The position numbers were made by a program, and so were the translations under genes. Shown one piece after another: positions 6,263-22,645 of a stretch of 39,523 bases of DNA (its first letter is position 1; each line of letters starts with the position of its first letter). The DNA is from Neobacillus cucumis (GTDB lineage Bacteria; Bacillota; Bacilli; Bacillales_B; DSM-18226), in assembly GCF_023715505.1 (NCBI RefSeq), contig NZ_JAMBOH010000038.1, positions 1 to 39,523 on the forward strand. The letters are read 5' to 3'. Under the pieces are notes generated by a model. That model worked only from the letters and a program-made list of their open reading frames with translations. It had not been told where the DNA came from and ran no database searches.

Positions 6263-6610
6263 TTACAATAAATATAGAAAAAATACAACAAACGATAGAA
6301 TGGCTAAGAATAGAATCATAGCTGTGTCCTTAAAGGAATCCTTTACCCGAATATGTGTAAGGATGCCTCCTACACCTGTAACAGCAAGTAAAAGTGCTCC
6401 TGCCATTGCCGAAGTAGGAACCCAATATCCAACAATTAAAAGTATAGCCCCGACTAATTCAACAAGCCCAGTAACGATTCTAAACCATTGCGGCAATCTC
6501 CAGTGCGTAAAAGCTTCCACATGCATCTTAGAACCAGTTACTTTCCCGAAACCAGCCATTAAAAACATTAAGGCAAGAATTCCTTGGAGAATAAAAGTTA
6601 AAATTACCAT
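6263..6610 (-). CDS. DoxX family membrane protein
   Basis: Small integral membrane protein of 115 residues with four hydrophobic helices. The N-terminal block MFLMAGFGKVTGSKMHVEAF and the second-helix block IVTGLVELVGAILLIVGYW are characteristic of DoxX proteins. These small proteins are associated with quinone-linked thiol or sulfur redox reactions in other organisms, but the function of the short Bacillus forms is unproven. It sits between two soluble oxidoreductase genes of the TetR-linked operon. A second DoxX gene with different neighbours occurs at 18075-18494. Confidence 0.85.
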   Translation of the reverse strand: MVILTFILQGILALMFLMAGFGKVTGSKMHVEAFTHWRLPQWFRIVTGLVELVGAILLIVGYWVPTSAMAGALLLAVTGVGGILTHIRVKDSFKDTAMILFLAILSFVVFFLYLL

Positions 6611-6661
6611 AATTCTTCTCTCCCCTTTTAAGTTGTTTGTAATTCTCTAAAAAGCAATACT

Positions 6662-7708
6662 TTATTTAGATAAAGCTCTGCGTACCATTGGTGCTACTTT
6701 GTTTGCCAGTAGGTCAATAGCTTTTTCTACTCTGGCTAATGGCAGACCACCCATATCGAATTGTCCCATAAAACGTGAATGTCCGAATAGCTCATGCTGA
6801 TACAAGATTTTTTCTGCCAGTTCTTCTGCACTTCCAACTGCTAATATTTGTCCAGCTGCTCGCTGAGGTGTTAATTGCTCCGCTGATGTATAAGAGTGTG
6901 GATAACCACGATCTTTTGAAAAGTTGTCAAAATATTGATTGTAGTGCGGAAGAAATTCGGTAATCGCTTGTTCTCCTGTTTGGGCGATATACGAATGCCC
7001 CGTCACAGAAACTCTTAACTGGGATACATCATGATCTGCTTCTCTAGCCGCTTCCCAGTATAGGTCTGCTAGTGGTTTGACTGATTCTGGACGACCACCT
7101 AACAAACCAAGAGCCATATTTAAACCTAGTCTCCCTGCACGAACGGCACTGGCAGGGGTACCCCCAACACCAATCCATAGAGGCAGTTTCTTCTGAACAG
7201 GTCTAGGAGCGATTTGTGCATTTTGAAGGGGGGAACGGAAATTTCCGTGCCAACTGACGACTTCCTGCTCTTGCAATCTCAAAAATAAATTCAGCTTCTC
7301 TTCAAACAATTCATCGTAATCATTTAAACTTGCTCCAAAGAGAGAGAATGATTCTATAAATGCCCCACGACCTAAAATAATTTCAGTGCGTCCGCTCGAT
7401 AATAAATCCAGTGTTGCAAAATCTTCGTAAACACGCACTGGATCAGCTGTGCTAATAACGGATAGCGTGCTGGTTAGTTTAATATTTTTCGTCTCCCGTG
7501 CAATCGCTGCAAGCAGCATGGCGTAAGAAGATGTGACAAAATCCAGACGGTGATGTTCTCCAACACCAAAAATATCAAGTCCTGCTTCATCCGCCATTTT
7601 TGCAATTTGAATAATCTCTTCTACTCTGGATAGGGCTGTTCGACTATTCCCATTGGCATCAGGTATTCGTTCACCCAATGAATAAACTCCAAATTCAAAT
7701 TGTTTCAT
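6662..7708 (-). CDS. LLM class flavin-dependent oxidoreductase
   Basis: Protein of 348 residues of the luciferase-like monooxygenase superfamily (TIM barrel, FMN-dependent). Blocks seen in order: FGVYSLGE near the N-terminus, GLDIFGVGEHHRLDF, TSTLSVISTADPVRVYEDFA, DLLSSGRTEIILGRGAF, then PLWIGVGGTPASAVRAGRLG. The last two belong to the YhbW/Atu3640-type branch. It would use FMNH2 delivered by a reductase, and the FMN reductase encoded at the end of the same operon is a natural partner (inference). The start codon sits 12 bp downstream of the previous stop, so the two genes are tightly coupled. Confidence 0.88.
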   Translation of the reverse strand: MKQFEFGVYSLGERIPDANGNSRTALSRVEEIIQIAKMADEAGLDIFGVGEHHRLDFVTSSYAMLLAAIARETKNIKLTSTLSVISTADPVRVYEDFATLDLLSSGRTEIILGRGAFIESFSLFGASLNDYDELFEEKLNLFLRLQEQEVVSWHGNFRSPLQNAQIAPRPVQKKLPLWIGVGGTPASAVRAGRLGLNMALGLLGGRPESVKPLADLYWEAAREADHDVSQLRVSVTGHSYIAQTGEQAITEFLPHYNQYFDNFSKDRGYPHSYTSAEQLTPQRAAGQILAVGSAEELAEKILYQHELFGHSRFMGQFDMGGLPLARVEKAIDLLANKVAPMVRRALSK

Positions 7709-7720
7709 TCCCTTATCCTC

Positions 7721-8365
7721 CTAGTTGTTAAATACGATTGGCATTTTATGAACCCATTCGTCTTTCGTCGCAGCATCAAGCATACATTTTGCTGCATTAT
7801 AACGAGAAACACTCATCTTGCTTTTCGTATCTCCAAACGATATACCGTATCCATTGCCATCTGTTTTCGCATTCGGATCAATGATACGCACAATTGTCCA
7901 ATCAAGCTTAGCTGTTTTAAGCAGCTTTTCTATCTCTTTCATCTCTGCGTAGCCAGTGGGCATGAACATCCTAGGCATGAGGCTCGGCAACACTGTAGCA
8001 AGCTGTTTAACGTCTTCCTTTGCAGAGATCGCAGGTGTTCCAAGCGTAATGAACCTTTTGATTCCGTACTCCTCCATAACAGAGATAATGGCTTTATGTG
8101 CTTCTGCTATAGGGAGGTCTGAAACTTTTCGTTTCATTGACATTGCTGGTCCAAGGGCACTTAAAACAGCATCTCTTCCTATGATGGCTTCTTTTAATTT
8201 TTCTTGGTCTGTTAAAGACCCTACTACACTTTGAAGTTTTTCATGTTCTATATTTAAAGCATTATGTCGTCTCGTATAGGCTGTAACATCATATCCAGCG
8301 TCAAGTGCTTGCTTAACAAGAAGTTGACCGATTTGACCATTTGCTCCGAAAATTGTTATTTTCAT
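7721..8365 (-). CDS. NAD(P)H-binding NmrA-type protein
   Basis: Protein of 214 residues starting MKITIFGANGQIGQLLVKQA; the ATG at 8363-8365 is preferred over an in-frame GTG at 8374, which lies inside the GGAGTGAGG ribosome site. The GANGQIG loop is the Rossmann dinucleotide site, followed by VTAYTRRHNAL, and VLSALGPAMSM. Family: NAD(P)H-binding domain PF13460 (atypical SDR), often flavin or biliverdin reductase-like. It is the first gene of the operon, immediately behind the shared TetR promoter region. Confidence 0.87.
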   Translation of the reverse strand: MKITIFGANGQIGQLLVKQALDAGYDVTAYTRRHNALNIEHEKLQSVVGSLTDQEKLKEAIIGRDAVLSALGPAMSMKRKVSDLPIAEAHKAIISVMEEYGIKRFITLGTPAISAKEDVKQLATVLPSLMPRMFMPTGYAEMKEIEKLLKTAKLDWTIVRIIDPNAKTDGNGYGISFGDTKSKMSVSRYNAAKCMLDAATKDEWVHKMPIVFNN

Positions 8366-8390
8366 TTTCCTCACTCCAACATCTTTTGTT

Positions 8391-15447: not shown

Positions 15448-16521
15448 TTACACTAATGATAACATTAAACCAAAATATAGGACTGCGATAAATCCAATCC
15501 CGAAAAAAACGGCAGGTAAAGGTCGTTTCTGGTTGAAACTGAATAAAATCAGAAATAAAAATAGTAATGAAAGTATGATTAACAATACCGATTGGAACGA
15601 AGTTGCTAAATGAGTTTGTAAGGTTGTAAGAATATCTTTCCCTAATAACCATTCCACCCACTTGGATGCACCCTCTGACTTTACAGTGAATTCCACATCA
15701 TGTGGTGGCGATAACGTCCCCATCACAGCGGTGAAATAAAACACGAATAAGAGAATTACACTTTCCCCTTTAATCCATGGTCCTGGATTGAAGGATAAAT
15801 TCTTCAACGCTTTTTTTGTAAGTACACCATTTATAAAGGCGAAAGCCATAACAGGGATGATACTGATATGTTTTAACAGTAGCATTTGGCCATAAGGTAA
15901 CACCCATGCCTTTACATAATCTTTTGGTTCAACTATAAAGAACATTAAATAGATGCCACTAAGGATAATGATGATTAGGCAGATAACAGCAAAAGGAGTA
16001 AACCATCGTAAAAATTTAGACCAGTTAAGGTCTTCTTTTGAAAACCAGGCAACATTAATCAGTATACCTGTCCATAATGTAACTATTAAAAAATGAGTGC
16101 TGTGAGACCATAATCCTGCCTTAAATGACAGAGAAGCGACATGACTAGAATAACCAACAGCCAATATCATTAATAACAGTAAAATGGCTTGTATATATCT
16201 TGAGCCATTTAGCAAAAATGTAAGATATAAACATGTTGCTAGTAAACTTATATAGATCCAAGCTCTCCCGACTTGAAAGTCCAAGATTACGGATTGTACA
16301 GCTAAAAAGAAACCAACTCCTCCTTGGAAATATGAAACTGTTTGAACAATTGGTCCTAACGTGAGAATAATAATACCAAGTGCGGACAGGAGTAACAGTG
16401 GTTTAGGGATAGTAACTTTAGGTTTGTTCTTATCGGGTACAAATTGTAAAGCCACATGCCCAACTAGGATAGAATACAATAAATAATTTCCGAATTCAGT
16501 AATAGGAATGACGAACCCCAT
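15448..16521 (-). CDS. CopD family copper resistance membrane protein
   Basis: Protein of 357 residues with eight or nine membrane helices. CopD family features are seen: SHVASLSFKAGLWSHSTHFL in the central helices, the LVTLWTGILINVAWF helix, and FYFTAVMGTLSPP with downstream histidine. The conserved His residues in the membrane half are thought to help copper cross the cytoplasmic membrane. The start lies 2 bp after the copC stop, so the two are translationally coupled. In Bacillus subtilis the two domains are fused in YcnJ; here they are separate genes. A terminator follows. Confidence 0.85.
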   Translation of the reverse strand: MGFVIPITEFGNYLLYSILVGHVALQFVPDKNKPKVTIPKPLLLLSALGIIILTLGPIVQTVSYFQGGVGFFLAVQSVILDFQVGRAWIYISLLATCLYLTFLLNGSRYIQAILLLLMILAVGYSSHVASLSFKAGLWSHSTHFLIVTLWTGILINVAWFSKEDLNWSKFLRWFTPFAVICLIIIILSGIYLMFFIVEPKDYVKAWVLPYGQMLLLKHISIIPVMAFAFINGVLTKKALKNLSFNPGPWIKGESVILLFVFYFTAVMGTLSPPHDVEFTVKSEGASKWVEWLLGKDILTTLQTHLATSFQSVLLIILSLLFLFLILFSFNQKRPLPAVFFGIGFIAVLYFGLMLSLV

Positions 16522-16523
16522 AT

Positions 16524-17069
16524 TTAACGCTTCCTTCTAAATAACAGGAATAGACCAATGAACAAAATGACCACTACTGACACAACTATAATCGTGTTCA
16601 TATTAGAAATGTTATCCCTAGAAGGATTATCTGTTTTATTCTGTTTAACATCCGCTTTTTTAGGTTCTTCTTTTTTTGGAGTTACTGGCTGTTTGGTTTC
16701 CGCCTTTAGTTCCTCCTTTACTTCCTTTTGCACGGTAAATGGGATTTCACCCGTTATGGGATGACCGTCCTCACCAGCTATACTCCACTTAATTGTATAT
16801 GAGCCATTTTCTAATGGAGTTGATATTATACCTATTAGTTGATTATCTTTTGGCGTAACATGATCAAAAGGGATTTCTTGCCCATCTTTTACCAAAGTCA
16901 TTGTGCTTAAAGATTCAATCTTACCTTCATATGTAAGGACGATTTGTTTTTGGTCTTCTATGACCACTTGATTCGCAGCTGGATTGGATGAAGTAAGTTC
17001 CGTATGTGCACTAGCGATGCTTGGAATCATTACTAGTAAACTCATTAATAAGAATAGTAATTTTTTCAT
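16524..17069 (-). CDS. CopC domain copper-binding protein, membrane anchored
   Basis: Protein of 181 residues. A signal peptide (KKLLFLLMSLLVMIPSIASA) is followed directly by His-Thr-Glu, so cleavage would expose an N-terminal histidine, the Cu(II) brace residue of CopC. The CopC fold covers about residues 22-115 with SSNPAANQVV, LTYEGKIE and the EDGHPITGEIPF block that supplies the other His/Asp ligands. A Lys/Pro/Glu-rich linker (about 117-150) leads to a C-terminal transmembrane helix and RRKR, so the protein is anchored at the outer face. It would hand copper to the coupled CopD. No CAYTAC operator is seen upstream, so control by the neighbouring BlaI-type repressor is not supported for this gene. 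Confidence 0.87.
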   Translation of the reverse strand: MKKLLFLLMSLLVMIPSIASAHTELTSSNPAANQVVIEDQKQIVLTYEGKIESLSTMTLVKDGQEIPFDHVTPKDNQLIGIISTPLENGSYTIKWSIAGEDGHPITGEIPFTVQKEVKEELKAETKQPVTPKKEEPKKADVKQNKTDNPSRDNISNMNTIIVVSVVVILFIGLFLLFRRKR

Positions 17070-17296
17070 TTTGCTGTTCCTTTCTTAATTCCTATAATTT
17101 TTCTGTACATCCCTTTCATCATAACACTTTCATCTTGAGTTATAGTGCATTTATTTTCAACTACTTTGTACAAATCATAAAATTCCAAACCTATATCAGT
17201 ACAGAGAATTTTTACAATCCGCCGAAGGATTTTTTTCTTCGTCATCCCCTCATTCTATTAAAAGAAACGGAAATACATGTAAGATAATAATATTAA

Positions 17297-17320
17297 AGCT
17301 TTCCATATGTATGGAAAGCT
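17297..17320 (-). terminator. Perfect hairpin downstream of the dsbA-like gene
   Basis: Perfect 10-bp stem AGCTTTCCAT/ATGGAAAGCT with a four-base loop, 44 bp past the dsbA-like stop. Only CTTTAATATTATT follows on the minus strand, so termination would be moderate. Confidence 0.5.
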
Positions 17321-17363
17321 CTAATTATGGAAACCAGTGATTCACCTTTAATCTCCTAGTACC

Positions 17364-18050
17364 TTACATTTCTTTTGCTGCTTCGTTTACTCTCTCCTTG
17401 AAATCGTTATATGTATTTCCTTCAAACTTGACACCGTTGATATAAATGGCAGGGGTACTAGTAATACTAAGCTTACTAGCCGTTGACATATCTTTTTTCC
17501 ATGCCTCTCCTGCCTCGTCATGATTAAAAGAATTAACTACTTTATTCACTTCTGCCTCAGAAACAATTTCCCTTAATGTCCCCTTTAGAAAAGACTCTGT
17601 ATAGACATCCATTTGCTCTGCTTTTGTGTCTTCGGGCTGTTTTTTATATAATAGCTCATGGAACTTCCAAAACGTCTCATTTCCTAATTCTTTAAATACT
17701 GCTTCCGCAAATTTAGCAGAACGAGTAGAATCAACATTGATAAATGAATAATTCATAAAGTATAACGAGGCTTTTCCTGTATCAATAAGATCCTTTTCTA
17801 TACTAGGAAGAAGTGAATCGTTGAAATTTTTACAATACGGACACTTATAGTCACCAAATTCAACTATTTTTACTGGTGCTGATTTTTCACCTAAAAATGG
17901 CTGTCCCGCATAGTCAATGGCTTCTTTCTTAGTCTGATTTGATAAAAAAATTAAACCAGCAAGACAGATGGTGACAAAACCGATAATCCAAAATAGAAAC
18001 TTCGAAGATTGTTTTTTAGCTTTATTGGCTTTTTTGTTTCCTGATGACAT
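17364..18050 (-). CDS. DsbA family thiol-disulfide oxidoreductase, membrane anchored (BdbD-like)
   Basis: Protein of 228 residues with a Lys-rich cytoplasmic start, one transmembrane helix (about 17-38, FLFWIIGFVTICLAGLIFLS) and an extracytoplasmic thioredoxin-like domain. The active site is Cys70-Pro-Tyr-Cys73 in VEFGDYKCPYCKNF. The cis-proline loop is STPAIYING near residue 200. It should form or shuffle disulfides in exported proteins. Its usual partner BdbC is not encoded nearby; instead the gene lies 24 bp downstream of doxX in the same transcript, behind a promoter with BlaI-type operators. DoxX could re-oxidise it through the quinone pool (inference). Confidence 0.88.
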   Translation of the reverse strand: MSSGNKKANKAKKQSSKFLFWIIGFVTICLAGLIFLSNQTKKEAIDYAGQPFLGEKSAPVKIVEFGDYKCPYCKNFNDSLLPSIEKDLIDTGKASLYFMNYSFINVDSTRSAKFAEAVFKELGNETFWKFHELLYKKQPEDTKAEQMDVYTESFLKGTLREIVSEAEVNKVVNSFNHDEAGEAWKKDMSTASKLSITSTPAIYINGVKFEGNTYNDFKERVNEAAKEM

Positions 18051-18074
18051 TTACTCACCTTCTTTTTCTAAACT

Positions 18075-18494
18075 CTAAGAATTAACTTTCTTAGTCTGAT
18101 CTTTTGAGAACAATTTTGAATCAAGAGAAAGAGTAGCATTTGAATTTAGGAATAAAAATACCGCCATAACTGCAAAAGCAAGATCAAGCTCGTACCCTGC
18201 TCCTTGACCATTTCCCATGAAGCCTGCTGCTATCTTTACCTTTACAATTGCTCCAATCATAATTAAAACAAAGAGGGCTGCTATGTATCGTGTACCAAGA
18301 CCGATGATTAACAAAAGACCCCCAATTAACTCAATAATTGCAACTGCGTACCCCATAAAGCCTGGAATCCCGATACTTTCAAACCATCCGGCAGTATTAT
18401 CAATTCCATTTTGAAACTTAGATAAACCATGGATAAAGAAGGATAACCCTAAAAATACTCTTAAAATTAAAACACCGATTTCTGTTTTTTTCAT
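18075..18494 (-). CDS. DoxX family membrane protein of the BlaI-controlled operon
   Basis: Protein of 139 residues with four membrane helices. Typical DoxX blocks are seen: LILRVFLGLSFFIHGLSKFQ, then IPGFMGYAVAIIELIGGLLL, IIGLGTRYIAALFVLIMIGA. The start ATG (18492-18494) overlaps the TGA of a 25-codon leader ORF as ATGA, and the GGAGGAG site lies inside that ORF, so translation is likely coupled. It is followed after 24 bp by the DsbA-like gene. In mycobacteria DoxX forms a membrane complex with a thiol transferase and superoxide dismutase; a quinone-linked redox role here is an inference from that family and from the dsbA neighbour. Confidence 0.87.
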   Translation of the reverse strand: MKKTEIGVLILRVFLGLSFFIHGLSKFQNGIDNTAGWFESIGIPGFMGYAVAIIELIGGLLLIIGLGTRYIAALFVLIMIGAIVKVKIAAGFMGNGQGAGYELDLAFAVMAVFLFLNSNATLSLDSKLFSKDQTKKVNS

Positions 18495-18568
18495 TTCATT
18501 AACTCCTCCAATTTAACGTATTTTGTAGGAAACCATAGACAGGCACTACATTCAGTAGTGTTGAACAT
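18491..18568 (-). CDS. 25-residue CxxC leader peptide upstream of doxX
   Basis: A short ORF starts at ATG 18566-18568, six bases after a strong AAAAGGGG site, reads MFNTTECSACLWFPTKYVKL and ends EELMK at a TGA that overlaps the doxX start codon (ATGA). It contains one CxxC pair (Cys7, Cys10). One BlaI-type operator (18544-18560) lies within its codons. The strong ribosome site, exact stop-start overlap and placement in the 5' leader of a regulated operon argue that it is translated. It may couple or attenuate doxX translation in response to thiol or metal state, or be a tiny metal-binding peptide. No homologue recognised. Confidence 0.55.
   Translation of the reverse strand: MFNTTECSACLWFPTKYVKLEELMK
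18544..18560. promoter_or_regulatory. BlaI-type operator O2
   Basis: CACTAC-N5-GTAGTG with perfect 6-bp arms. It lies about 60 bp downstream of the -10 box, inside the leader ORF. Same half-sites and spacing as the site at 18608-18624. Confidence 0.7.
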
Positions 18569-18601
18569 GATTTACCCCTTTTAAAAAAGTCTTCGATAAA
18601 T

Positions 18602-18645
18602 AAATTACACTACCCATTGTAGTGTAATTTACAACGATTGGTCAA
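18602..18645 (-). promoter_or_regulatory. doxX-dsbA promoter with overlapping BlaI-type operator O1
   Basis: On the minus strand a -35 box TTGACC (rc of 18640-18645) and a -10 box TACAAT (rc of 18616-18621) are separated by 18 bases. The -10 box lies inside a 29-bp palindrome whose perfect 12-bp arms (AAATTACACTAC and GTAGTGTAATTT, 18602-18613 and 18619-18630) hold the core CACTAC-N5-GTAGTG. Repressor bound here would block RNA polymerase. The TACAnnTGTA-like core is the known type for BlaI/MecI/CopY proteins. Confidence 0.8.
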
Positions 18646-18732
18646 GGATTTTAATTTTTCCCTTGTATTTGATAAAGGTTATAAAACAAAGGATTGGATT
18701 TTGACTCCAATCCTTTAGAAAAGCAAAAATGG

Positions 18733-19587
18733 TTATGCTATTACTAAAATGAAAAGTATGACAACGAACATATTTAATGAGATAATGACTGACCGTGCCT
18801 GCATCTTAACTGGAATGGTCTGTTGTGGATTTAACAGCTGTTTTAACCGATAATCAACGGTTTCATCCGCAAAATGTACAAGAGCTGGTGCAGGATGTGC
18901 AATTTTTAATTGATTCTTGATTAACTTTAATAAAGCACTTCCCAAACCAAGTTCAGAACCCATTCTTTTAATCGCAAATTCATCCGCCACTAGTTCAACC
19001 ATGATTCTATAATTCTGATAGGACCATTTCGTAAGAGGGATATACCACATTACTTCTGAGATTATTTGTAAAACAAAAACCTTCAATCCATCATAATACT
19101 TTTGATGCGACGTCTCATGGTATATTACTGCTTCTAATTCTTTCGAATCTAACATGTCAATTAAAATAGTAGAAAGCACTATTTTTGGTTTCCGAAACCC
19201 AAAGGTAAATGCTAAAGGTTCCTTATCTTGAATAACCACAATGTCATTATTTTTTCTGTTAAATGTTTCATTCAATTCACTAGATTTATTTATTTGATTA
19301 CGTTGCTGAATCTGATGTCGAAATGAACTTAATAAGACAATCTGGTTAATAACCTTTTTACAAATAATGAAAACCGTATAAAAAATATAGGTATTTACAA
19401 TAATCTCAACTGCGAAATATCCAAACGTACCTGGTTTAAATAAACTCACGCAAAAAATAAAAATATTAAATAGCTCTATTGGTCCAATAAAATCATTTAA
19501 TATGTACAAACCCATTTGAACAAACAAAATGATCGCAAAGAAGAGGGCTAATCCAAACACTGCGGTTGACTTTTGTTTCCAGACCAT
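18733..19587 (-). CDS. M56 family membrane metalloprotease (BlaR1-like, without sensor domain)
   Basis: Protein of 284 residues with four predicted membrane helices (about 10-30, 38-50, 58-80 and C-terminal 264-283). The zinc protease motif is His157-Glu-Thr-Ser-His161 in AVIYHETSHQKYYDG, with the third ligand Glu198 in ELVADEF. BlaR1/MecR1 proteins have the same core plus a C-terminal penicillin-binding sensor of about 250 residues; that domain is absent here, so the signal is not a beta-lactam bound in the usual way. Its start directly abuts the blaI-type stop with no gap. The expected job is to cleave or inactivate the neighbouring repressor on receiving an envelope signal. The signal is unknown; redox or copper stress is a guess from the target genes. 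Confidence 0.87.
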   Translation of the reverse strand: MVWKQKSTAVFGLALFFAIILFVQMGLYILNDFIGPIELFNIFIFCVSLFKPGTFGYFAVEIIVNTYIFYTVFIICKKVINQIVLLSSFRHQIQQRNQINKSSELNETFNRKNNDIVVIQDKEPLAFTFGFRKPKIVLSTILIDMLDSKELEAVIYHETSHQKYYDGLKVFVLQIISEVMWYIPLTKWSYQNYRIMVELVADEFAIKRMGSELGLGSALLKLIKNQLKIAHPAPALVHFADETVDYRLKQLLNPQQTIPVKMQARSVIISLNMFVVILFILVIA

Positions 19588-20004
19588 TTATTTTCTGTCC
19601 CTTTTTAATTGTTCCAGTTTTTGTTCCAGTTTTTCCAGTAAATGATCATCCACCTCTTTTAATGAATCGAGCATATGGTTAACAACTAATCCCCCAAATT
19701 CATCTAAAAGGTTTTCTGTTAGTTTTTTAGATTGGTTATTAATAAAATCCTCTTTGGTGGTAAGAGGCTTAAAGAGAGATGTACGTCCTTCCAATCTTTT
19801 TGTCAGGATGTTTTTATCAACAAGACGATTCATTACCGTCATAACAGTATTAAAATTTATCGGTTTCTCTTTTTCTAAAATTAGTTGGACTTCCTTAATA
19901 CTACTTTCATTCCCATTCCAAAGAATATTCATTATTTTAGATTCAAGCGGGCCAAAAAAACGATTAAGACCTTCTTGATCAACACGAAAATTATTTATTG
20001 TCAA
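19588..20004 (-). CDS. BlaI/MecI/CopY family transcriptional repressor
   Basis: Protein of 138 residues starting TTG at 20002-20004. The winged helix is seen as LNRFFGPLESKIMNILWNG, then SSIKEVQLIL, and FNTVMTVMNRLVDKNILTKR, matching the Penicillinase_R family. The C-terminal helices (TENLLDEFGGLVVNHMLDSL) are the dimer part. It is the first gene of a two-gene unit with the M56 protease, as in blaI-blaR1 pairs. Its own promoter (20032-20060) and the doxX promoter carry matching CAYTAC-N5-GTAGTG sites over the -10 box, so autorepression and repression of leader-doxX-dsbA are strongly implied. No CopY-type C-terminal CxC metal motif is present. Confidence 0.9.
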   Translation of the reverse strand: MTINNFRVDQEGLNRFFGPLESKIMNILWNGNESSIKEVQLILEKEKPINFNTVMTVMNRLVDKNILTKRLEGRTSLFKPLTTKEDFINNQSKKLTENLLDEFGGLVVNHMLDSLKEVDDHLLEKLEQKLEQLKRDRK

Positions 20005-20023
20005 TTAACACACACCTACCCTT

Positions 20024-20060
20024 CATTACAAATTGTAGTGTATTGGGTCTAATTTTTCAA
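20024..20060 (-). promoter_or_regulatory. blaI-M56 promoter with overlapping operator O3
   Basis: Minus-strand -35 TTGAAA (rc of 20055-20060) and -10 TACAAT (rc of 20032-20037) are 17 bases apart. The -10 box sits inside CATTAC-N5-GTAGTG (20024-20040), which differs by one base from the perfect sites upstream of doxX. The promoter/operator geometry is the same at both genes. Confidence 0.78.
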
Positions 20061-20114
20061 TCAAAGGATTAGTTACCTACAAAATATGAATTTTAAAAAA
20101 AAACAATTTCTTAA

Positions 20115-20148
20115 AGTAAAAATATGCTTGATATAGCATATTTTTACT
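20115..20148 (-). terminator. Terminator of the 20149-20361 gene
   Basis: Perfect 14-bp A/T-rich stem (20115-20128 with 20135-20148) begins directly after the stop codon; TTTAAG follows on the minus strand. Confidence 0.6.
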
Positions 20149-20361
20149 CTAAGAAATAAGTTTCGTTATGTTTTTTTGCTTAACTACATCTTCAAAATCA
20201 GTGGGTTTACTTAAGATTATTCCTCTCAGATCTAAGACACTAGTAATCAAACCTAGTTCATAATACATAGCTTTAGTTAAGATCCCCTTTTCAATGTTTT
20301 TACATATCTCATAATAAAAATTAATTAGGAAATCATTAGGTGATTTTTCATAAAGGTTCAT
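20149..20361 (-). CDS. Small hypothetical protein
   Basis: Protein of 70 residues from ATG 20359-20361, with AGAAGGTG upstream; the in-frame GTG at 20370 is part of that ribosome site. Sequence begins MNLYEKSPNDFLINFYYEIC and is rich in aromatic and acidic residues in its first half (predicted helices) with LGLITSVLDLRGI in the middle. No signal peptide, membrane segment or known motif. A dedicated terminator follows. It is the gene immediately upstream of the blaI promoter and has the same orientation but is over 100 bp away, so it is probably a separate transcript. I do not recognise the family. Confidence 0.5.
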   Translation of the reverse strand: MNLYEKSPNDFLINFYYEICKNIEKGILTKAMYYELGLITSVLDLRGIILSKPTDFEDVVKQKNITKLIS

Positions 20362-20540
20362 ATTGGACACCTTCTAGGGTAATTTTCGGAATTATTAATT
20401 ATTATAACTTGTGGGGAAAACGGTTACAAGCGGTTATTTAATTTCTAATAAAACTTTAATAATCCATTCCAATCTGAAACTGAATGAAGAGAAGATGCAA
20501 TCCTCTAAATTGTACTAGGCGGGATGTGTTCTCAGAACAA

Positions 20541-21643: not shown

Positions 21644-21881
21644 ACTTATCCCCTCCTTTACTACCCCTCTTTACCATGATATTTGCACCAATTTAAAATT
21701 TTGTTATTGGACATGAGTGGATTTTCATATGAAACTCGTCAAAAAACGCACATAAGCAATTTTCAATTAAAATTAACCCTAATTTACAGTAAATGGGTCC
21801 TTGTCCTCGTTAACTTGTCCAATCCACTGCACATCTTGAGAATAAGATGCTTAATAGACAAAGGAAAAGGAGTTGAAACAA

Positions 21882-22298
21882 TTGAGTAGAAGTAACAGAG
21901 AATTTGATAATCAAGGAAATCAGTCTGTGTTTAGAGGTTCTGCAAAAAACAATGACATTGACAACGACAATAACAGGAATAGGAATAGGAATAGGAACAG
22001 AAACAACAACACTAACAGGATCAACCACAGTAACACAAATGCCGATGTCAATGTGGACATTGATAATGAATTTGATAATGAATTTGATAATGAAGTGACA
22101 AATACTTCGGAATCCGAGGCAGAAGCTGAAGTTCGCAATGTTGACAACAATAACAATGAGGCTAGGGCAGATATGGATAACTCTGGAAATACTCGTTTTA
22201 ATGTTCGATTAAACAGCAACAGTAATGCACGTGTTAGAACGGACCAAGAACAAGACAACGAACAAAATCAAGACATCGATGTGGATTTTGATTTTTAA
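21882..22298 (+). CDS. Asn/Asp-rich low-complexity protein (copy 1 of tandem pair)
   Basis: Protein of 138 residues if it starts at TTG 21882, with AAAAGGAG nine bases upstream; the TTG at 21873 directly abuts that site. It is extremely rich in Asn, Asp, Arg and Ser and has no hydrophobic core. It contains an (Arg-Asn) run from hexamer repeats, three DNEF units, then the block SESEAEAEVRNVDNN, NSGNTRFNVRLNSNSNARVR, and an acidic C-terminus ending DIDVDFDF. The blocks after residue 60 align with the next gene. Alternating Asn/Asp with Val/Ile resembles curlin-like or beta-solenoid repeats. Likely secreted-structure or spore-surface component, but no family recognised and no signal peptide seen. 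Confidence 0.6.
   Translation: MSRSNREFDNQGNQSVFRGSAKNNDIDNDNNRNRNRNRNRNNNTNRINHSNTNADVNVDIDNEFDNEFDNEVTNTSESEAEAEVRNVDNNNNEARADMDNSGNTRFNVRLNSNSNARVRTDQEQDNEQNQDIDVDFDF
21975..22094 (+). repeat. In-frame microsatellites in the Asn/Asp-rich gene
   Basis: Four AGGAAT/AGGAAC hexamers occur at 21975-21998, and a 12-mer GATAATGAATTT occurs two and three-quarter times at 22062-22094. Both keep frame, adding Arg-Asn and DNEF units, so slippage would change protein length without breaking it. Confidence 0.75.
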
Positions 22299-22366
22299 GA
22301 GTATTCTTATAGATGTTCAATATTTAATAATTTTATAAAAGTAATAAATTTTAGGGGGATGAAAAA

Positions 22367-22645
22367 ATGGCAAGAAGAAACCAACGTAATAACACCAACA
22401 CAGATGTGAATGTTGATGTAAATAATGATATTGAAAACGATATTCGTAATCGTTCAGAATCAGAAGCAGAAGCAGACGTACGCAATGTTGACAGAAATAC
22501 AAATGTTGCTAGAGCTACAATCAATAACTCAGGTAATTCCCGTGTAGATATTAACTTAAATAGCAGAAGTAATGCACGTGTAAGATCCGATCAAGATCAA
22601 GAAAACGCCCAAGACCAAAATACTGATATAGATGTAGATTTTTAG
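22367..22645 (+). CDS. Asn/Asp-rich low-complexity protein (copy 2 of tandem pair)
   Basis: Protein of 92 residues, ATG 22367 with AGGGGGATG just upstream. It begins MARRNQRNNTNTDVNVDVNN and is a shorter paralogue of the gene 68 bp upstream. Shared blocks: SESEAEADVRNVDRN, NSGNSR-(I/F)-N-(L)-NS, SNARVRSDQDQEN, and the terminal DIDVDF. It lacks the Arg-Asn run and DNEF units. No signal, membrane segment or cysteine. Hydrophilic alternation (DVNVDVNNDIENDI) again suggests beta-strand stacking. The pair is followed by a terminator, so both are probably one transcript. Function unknown; a coat or matrix component is only a guess. Confidence 0.7.
   Translation: MARRNQRNNTNTDVNVDVNNDIENDIRNRSESEAEADVRNVDRNTNVARATINNSGNSRVDINLNSRSNARVRSDQDQENAQDQNTDIDVDF

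Follow-up and report, generated by a model that had tools for sequence, protein, structure and literature searches.

Conserved operators suggest that a BlaI repressor and an M56 protease without penicillin sensor control membrane redox genes in Neobacillus cucumis and related bacteria

Pairs of a BlaI-type repressor and an M56 membrane protease are usually taken as regulators of antibiotic resistance. Which genes does such a pair control, and which signal does it follow, if it is found next to a doxX-dsbA operon? This question is raised by a stretch of 39,523 nucleotides of Neobacillus cucumis (the window, i.e. the whole stretch of DNA that was analysed), for which a first-pass annotation had proposed a BlaI/M56 switch acting on doxX-dsbA with envelope redox or copper stress as the signal. 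Our work supports the switch with its shared and conserved operators, the sensorless M56 protein and the redox-type target, but not the copper part of the proposal. We consider it probable, at about three chances in four, that operators place both the blaI-M56 operon and the redox operon under one repressor, and that the sensorless M56 protein answers a thiol/quinone-redox or envelope signal and inactivates BlaI. The locus lies on the minus strand and is arranged as follows:

20032..20060, minus strand: blaI promoter, TTGAAA-17-TACAAT; the same promoter is kept in relatives
20024..20040: operator U, over the -10 box of blaI (plus strand CATTAC-N5-GTAGTG)
19588..20004, minus strand: BlaI-type repressor, 138 aa, TTG start (PF03965, 85.1 bits)
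18733..19587, minus strand: M56 membrane metallopeptidase, 284 aa, without penicillin-binding sensor (PF05569, 48 bits)
18687..18717, minus strand: terminator-like hairpin 3' of the M56 gene (-15.9 kcal/mol, z -4.25)
18616..18645, minus strand: doxX-dsbA promoter, TTGACC-18-TACAAT
18608..18624: operator D1, over the -10 box of doxX
18544..18560: operator D2, in the doxX leader
18075..18494, minus strand: DoxX membrane protein, 139 aa (PF07681, 85.2 bits)
17364..18050, minus strand: DsbA-type thioredoxin-fold protein, 228 aa (PF13462, 95.9 bits)
17292..17325, minus strand: terminator-like hairpin between dsbA and copC

Since a hairpin sits 3' of the M56 gene, doxX-dsbA is probably a transcription unit of its own in the window. 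A long AT-rich terminator-like hairpin is present immediately 5' of the blaI promoter (20108-20155). Elsewhere, the region 6263-8374 of the window holds a second DoxX-type gene (DoxX_2) together with genes for a luciferase-like monooxygenase and for NmrA/NAD-binding proteins, and at 21873-22645 two low-complexity proteins rich in Asn, Asp and Arg (141 and 92 aa) adjoin each other, neither of which matches a Pfam family.

The Penicillinase_R domain of the window BlaI (PF03965, cut-off 22.6 bits) places it in the BlaI/MecI/CopY superfamily. The M56 protein passes the PF05569 cut-off of 31 bits; its model aligns to residues 31-290 of the longer BlaR1 chain, and with blaR1_generic it reaches 34.5 bits (cut-off 400). 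The chain ends at residue 284 and has no penicillin-binding sensor, in agreement with the annotation; in relationship and fold the protein is thus BlaR1-like but for this sensor. The HExxH motif and the downstream Glu (H157, E158, H161, E198) are present in 169 of 169 proteins, a set that was made from 120 of the 164 search relatives and the ORFs of the loci (240-339 aa, identical copies dropped). There is one invariant cysteine in the same 169 proteins, Cys46 in the outer loop; this residue may be structural, because 10 of 38 remote M56 proteins also have a cysteine in this alignment column. Regulation of beta-lactam resistance is suggested by the family names of BlaI and M56 only. With the sensor lacking from M56, and no beta-lactamase or penicillin-binding protein among the ORFs scanned (33 of the 39 in the window that reach 90 aa; the other six lie opposite other ORFs), there is neither sensor nor target, and we reject this reading as having hardly any chance of being correct.

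A copper-responsive, CopY-like switch could be proposed on the basis of the CopC- and CopD-type genes that adjoin dsbA on its downstream side (15448-17069), and of the best NCBIfam models, which are CopY_TcrY for BlaI (51.1 bits, cut-off 121.95) and HvfX for DoxX, both below cut-off. However, the translation of the window BlaI contains no cysteine, and the same is true for 58 of 96 related BlaI proteins. Moreover, CopC or CopD is near none of the 96 related loci in the flanks fetched (up to 8 kb for L001-L044, about 1.5 kb for the other 52), and in the window a terminator-like hairpin parts dsbA from copC. We therefore do not favour the copper stress that the annotation had offered as an option and regard it as very unlikely.

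What connects the blaI-M56 operon to doxX-dsbA are the operators. The motif CAYTACNNNNNGTAGTG occurs without mismatch at three places (five strand matches) in the 39,523 bases and is not found in 100 dinucleotide shuffles of the window; sites of the form CAYTAC-N5-GTAGTG are confined to U, D1 and D2. These are the three sites that the annotation had described, two of them over the -10 boxes of blaI and doxX with the same geometry, i.e. with TACAAT embedded in the operator, and the third within the doxX leader. Promoter-like matches in the region 17000-20500 are at chance (15 found, 16.0 in shuffles), and the promoter calls in the window therefore rest on conservation: 61 of 64 blaI operators from the window and its relatives exceed the 95% shuffle threshold as sigma-A-like promoters (scored with a weight matrix set from general knowledge), and in all 61 the -10 box has the identical position in the operator.

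A protein search with the window M56 returned 164 relatives, and among the 120 of these matches that were listed Neobacillus, Metabacillus, Peribacillus, Aneurinibacillus, Paenibacillus, Cohnella and others are represented. For a scan of genomes, 41 relatives were aligned with the window protein, and this identified at least 44 close-family loci (L001-L044; M56 identity 85 to 31%), all with a BlaI relative directly upstream of M56. The annotation had named a lack of operators in orthologous loci as evidence against a switch; we find the blaI operator in all 44 relatives listed (45/45 with the window) at a score of at least 10 of 12 (11 in L003), and an operator before the next gene in 41 of the 44 (42/45 with the window). 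The second operator was not found in L043 and L044, and L033 stops at a contig edge. In a second set that was selected by protein (60 loci fetched, 18 duplicates dropped, 42 distinct), the blaI operator is present in 37 loci, the other five being not evaluable, and a second operator in 30 of 42. Taken together, the second operator is missing in 13 of 96 evaluable loci, L033 being left out. Among sampled genomes, the M56 family (E values up to 1e-30) is found in 41 of 397 from the order to which N. cucumis belongs and in 165 of 296 from that of a Paenibacillus. Our locus counts treat related genomes as separate, save where clusters are named. The record that contains L036 is titled Arthrobacter, yet the locus is bacilli-like, suggesting that it is mislabelled, contaminated or transferred.

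The operator is also informative outside the locus. The exact pattern CACTAC-N5-GTAGTG has 66 sites in 44 genomes, as compared to 18 for the reversed pattern. Of 18 off-locus sites examined, a set that leaves out one match (G044 C29), 14 precede dsbA (3), yceI (8), DUF3105 (2) or a second M56 junction (1). The four misfits are L108, L110 and L113, which look like chance, and the promoter of a relic doxX-dsbA unit in L102. At the locus itself, a relative of DoxX, DsbA, DsbB, DUF3105, YceI, cytochrome c or redoxin is encoded downstream of M56 in 92 of 97 loci (same strand, up to 2.6 kb past M56), which supports a thiol/quinone-redox type of target as the annotation had seen it in the window. These are redox families whose proteins are extracytoplasmic or sit in the membrane, and both YceI and DoxX have been linked to quinones. 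A redox or envelope role of the switch fits this gene content. The open-access literature search yielded no paper on the control of DoxX, DsbA, YceI or DUF3105 by BlaI/M56. The family has a recognisable operator, and its targets form a coherent group unrelated to resistance.

Some of these loci deserve mention in their own right. The upstream region of the decayed second doxX-dsbA unit in L102 (2585-3613) matches the L006 leader at 89%. In its coding part, DoxX residues 5-32 pass directly into DsbA residues 159-225, and a gene for signal peptidase II runs divergently from the relic. The exact operator at 2982-2998 of L110 is close to the start of another gene for signal peptidase II, which makes two of them near a site. 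In L122 and L124, an unlinked doxX bears two operators. Finally, in L123, L126 and L147 an exact operator at about 1515 follows an NlpC/P60-type gene with a terminator-like end and precedes a gene for an N-acetylmuramoyl-alanine amidase (Amidase_3; one of the three loci was scanned with Pfam).

The amidase operators bear on the nature of the signal. They would be in line with a system that senses cell-wall damage via peptidoglycan fragments or M56 rather than redox stress, and in Bacillus licheniformis the hold of BlaI on its operator is weakened by a peptidoglycan dipeptide (PMC3305447). Two observations argue against wall damage as the signal: the targets that could be recognised belong almost entirely to the thiol-redox, DoxX, YceI or DUF3105 proteins, and the amidase case is limited to a few genomes whose loci were drawn from a search for a T-run pattern (see below). 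We hold wall damage to be unlikely as the signal, and what credit it has comes from the Amidase_3 operators and from a peptidoglycan fragment acting on BlaI. Redox sensing is the reading to which the regulon content and the one cysteine of M56 point.

How is the target operon controlled in those relatives that have a single operator between M56 and the next gene? Promoter scores at these single-site leader operators are at chance (2/36), and we therefore rejected the idea that they act as promoter operators. They seem to sit in a transcribed region without an overlapping promoter. Their distinctive feature is a run of T at a fixed distance. Six or more of the eight bases at -17 to -10 are T at 37 of the first set's 42 leader operators, whereas this is the case for 1 of 45 blaI operators, for none of the 6 operators at doxX promoters and for 1.9% of windows in the background. 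The proportion is 34 of 36 in single-site and 3 of 6 in dual-site loci; in the protein-selected set it is lower than in the first set (20 of 30 second operators). In both sets combined, a run of at least four T ends exactly at -10 in 62 of 83 loci, as against no more than 7 loci for any other position from -40 to -1, and with one locus per 70% identity cluster it does so in 39 of 50 clusters. The loci L118-L147, which came from the T-run pattern search, are part of the hairpin (61) and promoter (64) counts but not of the T-run counts, although the protein search brought some of their genomes back into the 83 loci. The window itself differs: no T-run ends 10 bases before D2, the nearest one being at -28 to -23. 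Its two-site layout is common to L001-L004 and L006, and among these only L004 has the T-run ending at -10.

The spacing between T-run and operator does not look like a by-product of the gene end. In single-site loci, the operator begins anywhere from 16 to 270 bases past the M56 stop while the spacing stays at 10; the T-run thus goes with the operator, and the idea that it is a feature of the M56 stop codon is not supported. A T-run ending at -10 was likewise seen at the unlinked leader operators of L103 (four T), L105, L116 and L117, as well as at L114, the second M56 junction; it was not found at L104, L106, L109 and L112, and in L115 the run ends at -12. A scan of 397 genomes for TTTT-N10-CACTAC-N5-GTAG found 35 matches, spread over 29 genomes. 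Its reversed control produced about 55 matches in 54 genomes; the count is thus not above chance, and only the positions of the matches are informative. Twenty-one of the 35 are at M56-target junctions (in 19 genomes), 4 are before doxX, 5 are of the amidase kind and 5 are unexplained; three of the 35, one doxX and two amidase matches, were classed by their matched letters alone.

Relative to shuffles, the sequence upstream of the T-run folds with z below -2 in 30 of 61 loci as compared to 6 of 183 coding controls; in the protein-selected set, 17 of 41 loci do so, and a hairpin is therefore frequent but not general. Where a second operator is lacking, T-rich stretches still occur: 6 of these 13 loci show at least six T in eight within 80 bases of the stop. 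The T-run might simply belong to an ordinary terminator of blaI-M56: the operator would then act separately, for example at a missed promoter or by looping to the blaI operator, and the spacing would reflect the packing of short regions. The window, with a terminator-like hairpin and a separate promoter, is in line with this; strong terminator-like hairpins at L010, L034 and L136 and the many single-site operators that lie just 16-20 bases past the M56 stop agree with it as well. Yet it would account poorly for a spacing of 10 that is kept over all those stop distances, for the chance-level promoter scores of the single-site operators, and for T-runs at -10 in front of dsbA, DUF3105 and yceI genes that are unlinked to M56 (L103, L105, L116 and L117). 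Looping between paired operators is not favoured, as their spacings (60-66, 98-108, 122-123 and 196 bp) have, by eye, no constant helical phase. On balance, an ordinary terminator with an independent operator is rather doubtful.

The sites, the promoters, their conservation, the regulon content and the M56 architecture are properties of the DNA; from them we infer the following course of events. The BlaI-type repressor would bind CACTAC-N5-GTAGTG at two operons, blaI-M56 itself and one of membrane redox genes. M56 would respond, possibly via the invariant Cys46 in its outer loop, to an extracytoplasmic signal of the thiol/quinone-redox or envelope kind and would inactivate BlaI, so that all operators are freed at once. 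In the window, the doxX promoter would be blocked at its -10 box by D1 and again in the leader by D2. The target of most relatives lacks a recognisable promoter of its own, and transcripts from the blaI promoter would reach it by reading through the T-run, often with a hairpin, that directly precedes the operator. In the single-site loci, the operator would thus meet an elongating polymerase, and it is tempting to speculate that BlaI, bound ten bases past the T-run, holds the polymerase where the RNA end is all U, which would favour release; once BlaI is removed, the weak terminator would be passed and the redox genes transcribed. Such a signal-gated terminator, composed of a T-run, often with a weak hairpin, and a BlaI roadblock and read through after M56 has inactivated BlaI, is a tentative idea that we judge to fall just short of an even chance. 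If it is correct, gated terminators recur before doxX, dsbA, yceI and DUF3105 in Bacillus-like and Paenibacillus-like bacteria. Irrespective of this, with a recognisable operator and non-resistance targets the annotation of BlaI-M56 pairs in many bacilli could be corrected, the signal of the family becomes testable through operator and target set, and the fixed spacing provides a natural test of how a bound repressor and a terminator act jointly.

The arrangement resembles the BlaI-BlaR1 and MecI-MecR1 systems, in which a BlaI-type repressor gene also lies beside that of an M56 protease and operators are common to the repressor operon and the target. It differs from them in the absence of the penicillin sensor and in the thiol-redox membrane operon as the target. 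With CopY and TcrY, the window BlaI shares the PF03965 superfamily and a best NCBIfam model below cut-off. CopY and TcrY carry a C-terminal cysteine metal motif, whereas the window BlaI is devoid of cysteines and has an M56 partner. From the BlaI-BlaR1 system the half-sites differ as well: TAC-N5-GTA in our loci as against TAC-N4-GTA in the B. licheniformis OP1 oligonucleotide (PMC3305447). A BlaI protein tied to non-beta-lactamase genes has been described in mycobacteria (Rv1846c; PMC12565901), but organisms and targets are different. Roadblocks by LacI, PurR, CcpA and CodY, where a repressor bound past the transcription start blocks RNA polymerase, are established (PMC10310618); the layout observed here, in which a T-run that is often joined by a hairpin precedes the operator at constant spacing, is absent from the part of that article available to us. 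Our literature search found no paper that joins roadblock, terminator, repressor, readthrough and U-tract. A further parallel is found in the yeast RNA polymerase I terminators, for which PMC12366685 describes a hairpin, a T-rich stretch and a Reb1/Nsi1 roadblock in series, with the polymerase halting 15 bp before the Reb1/Nsi1 site; according to the same paper, the interplay of repressor and terminator is still argued over for this eukaryotic enzyme. If our reading is right, the leader operators would be a bacterial and switchable counterpart of these Reb1-type terminators, in which a bacterial polymerase meets a roadblock that is switched off by a signal.
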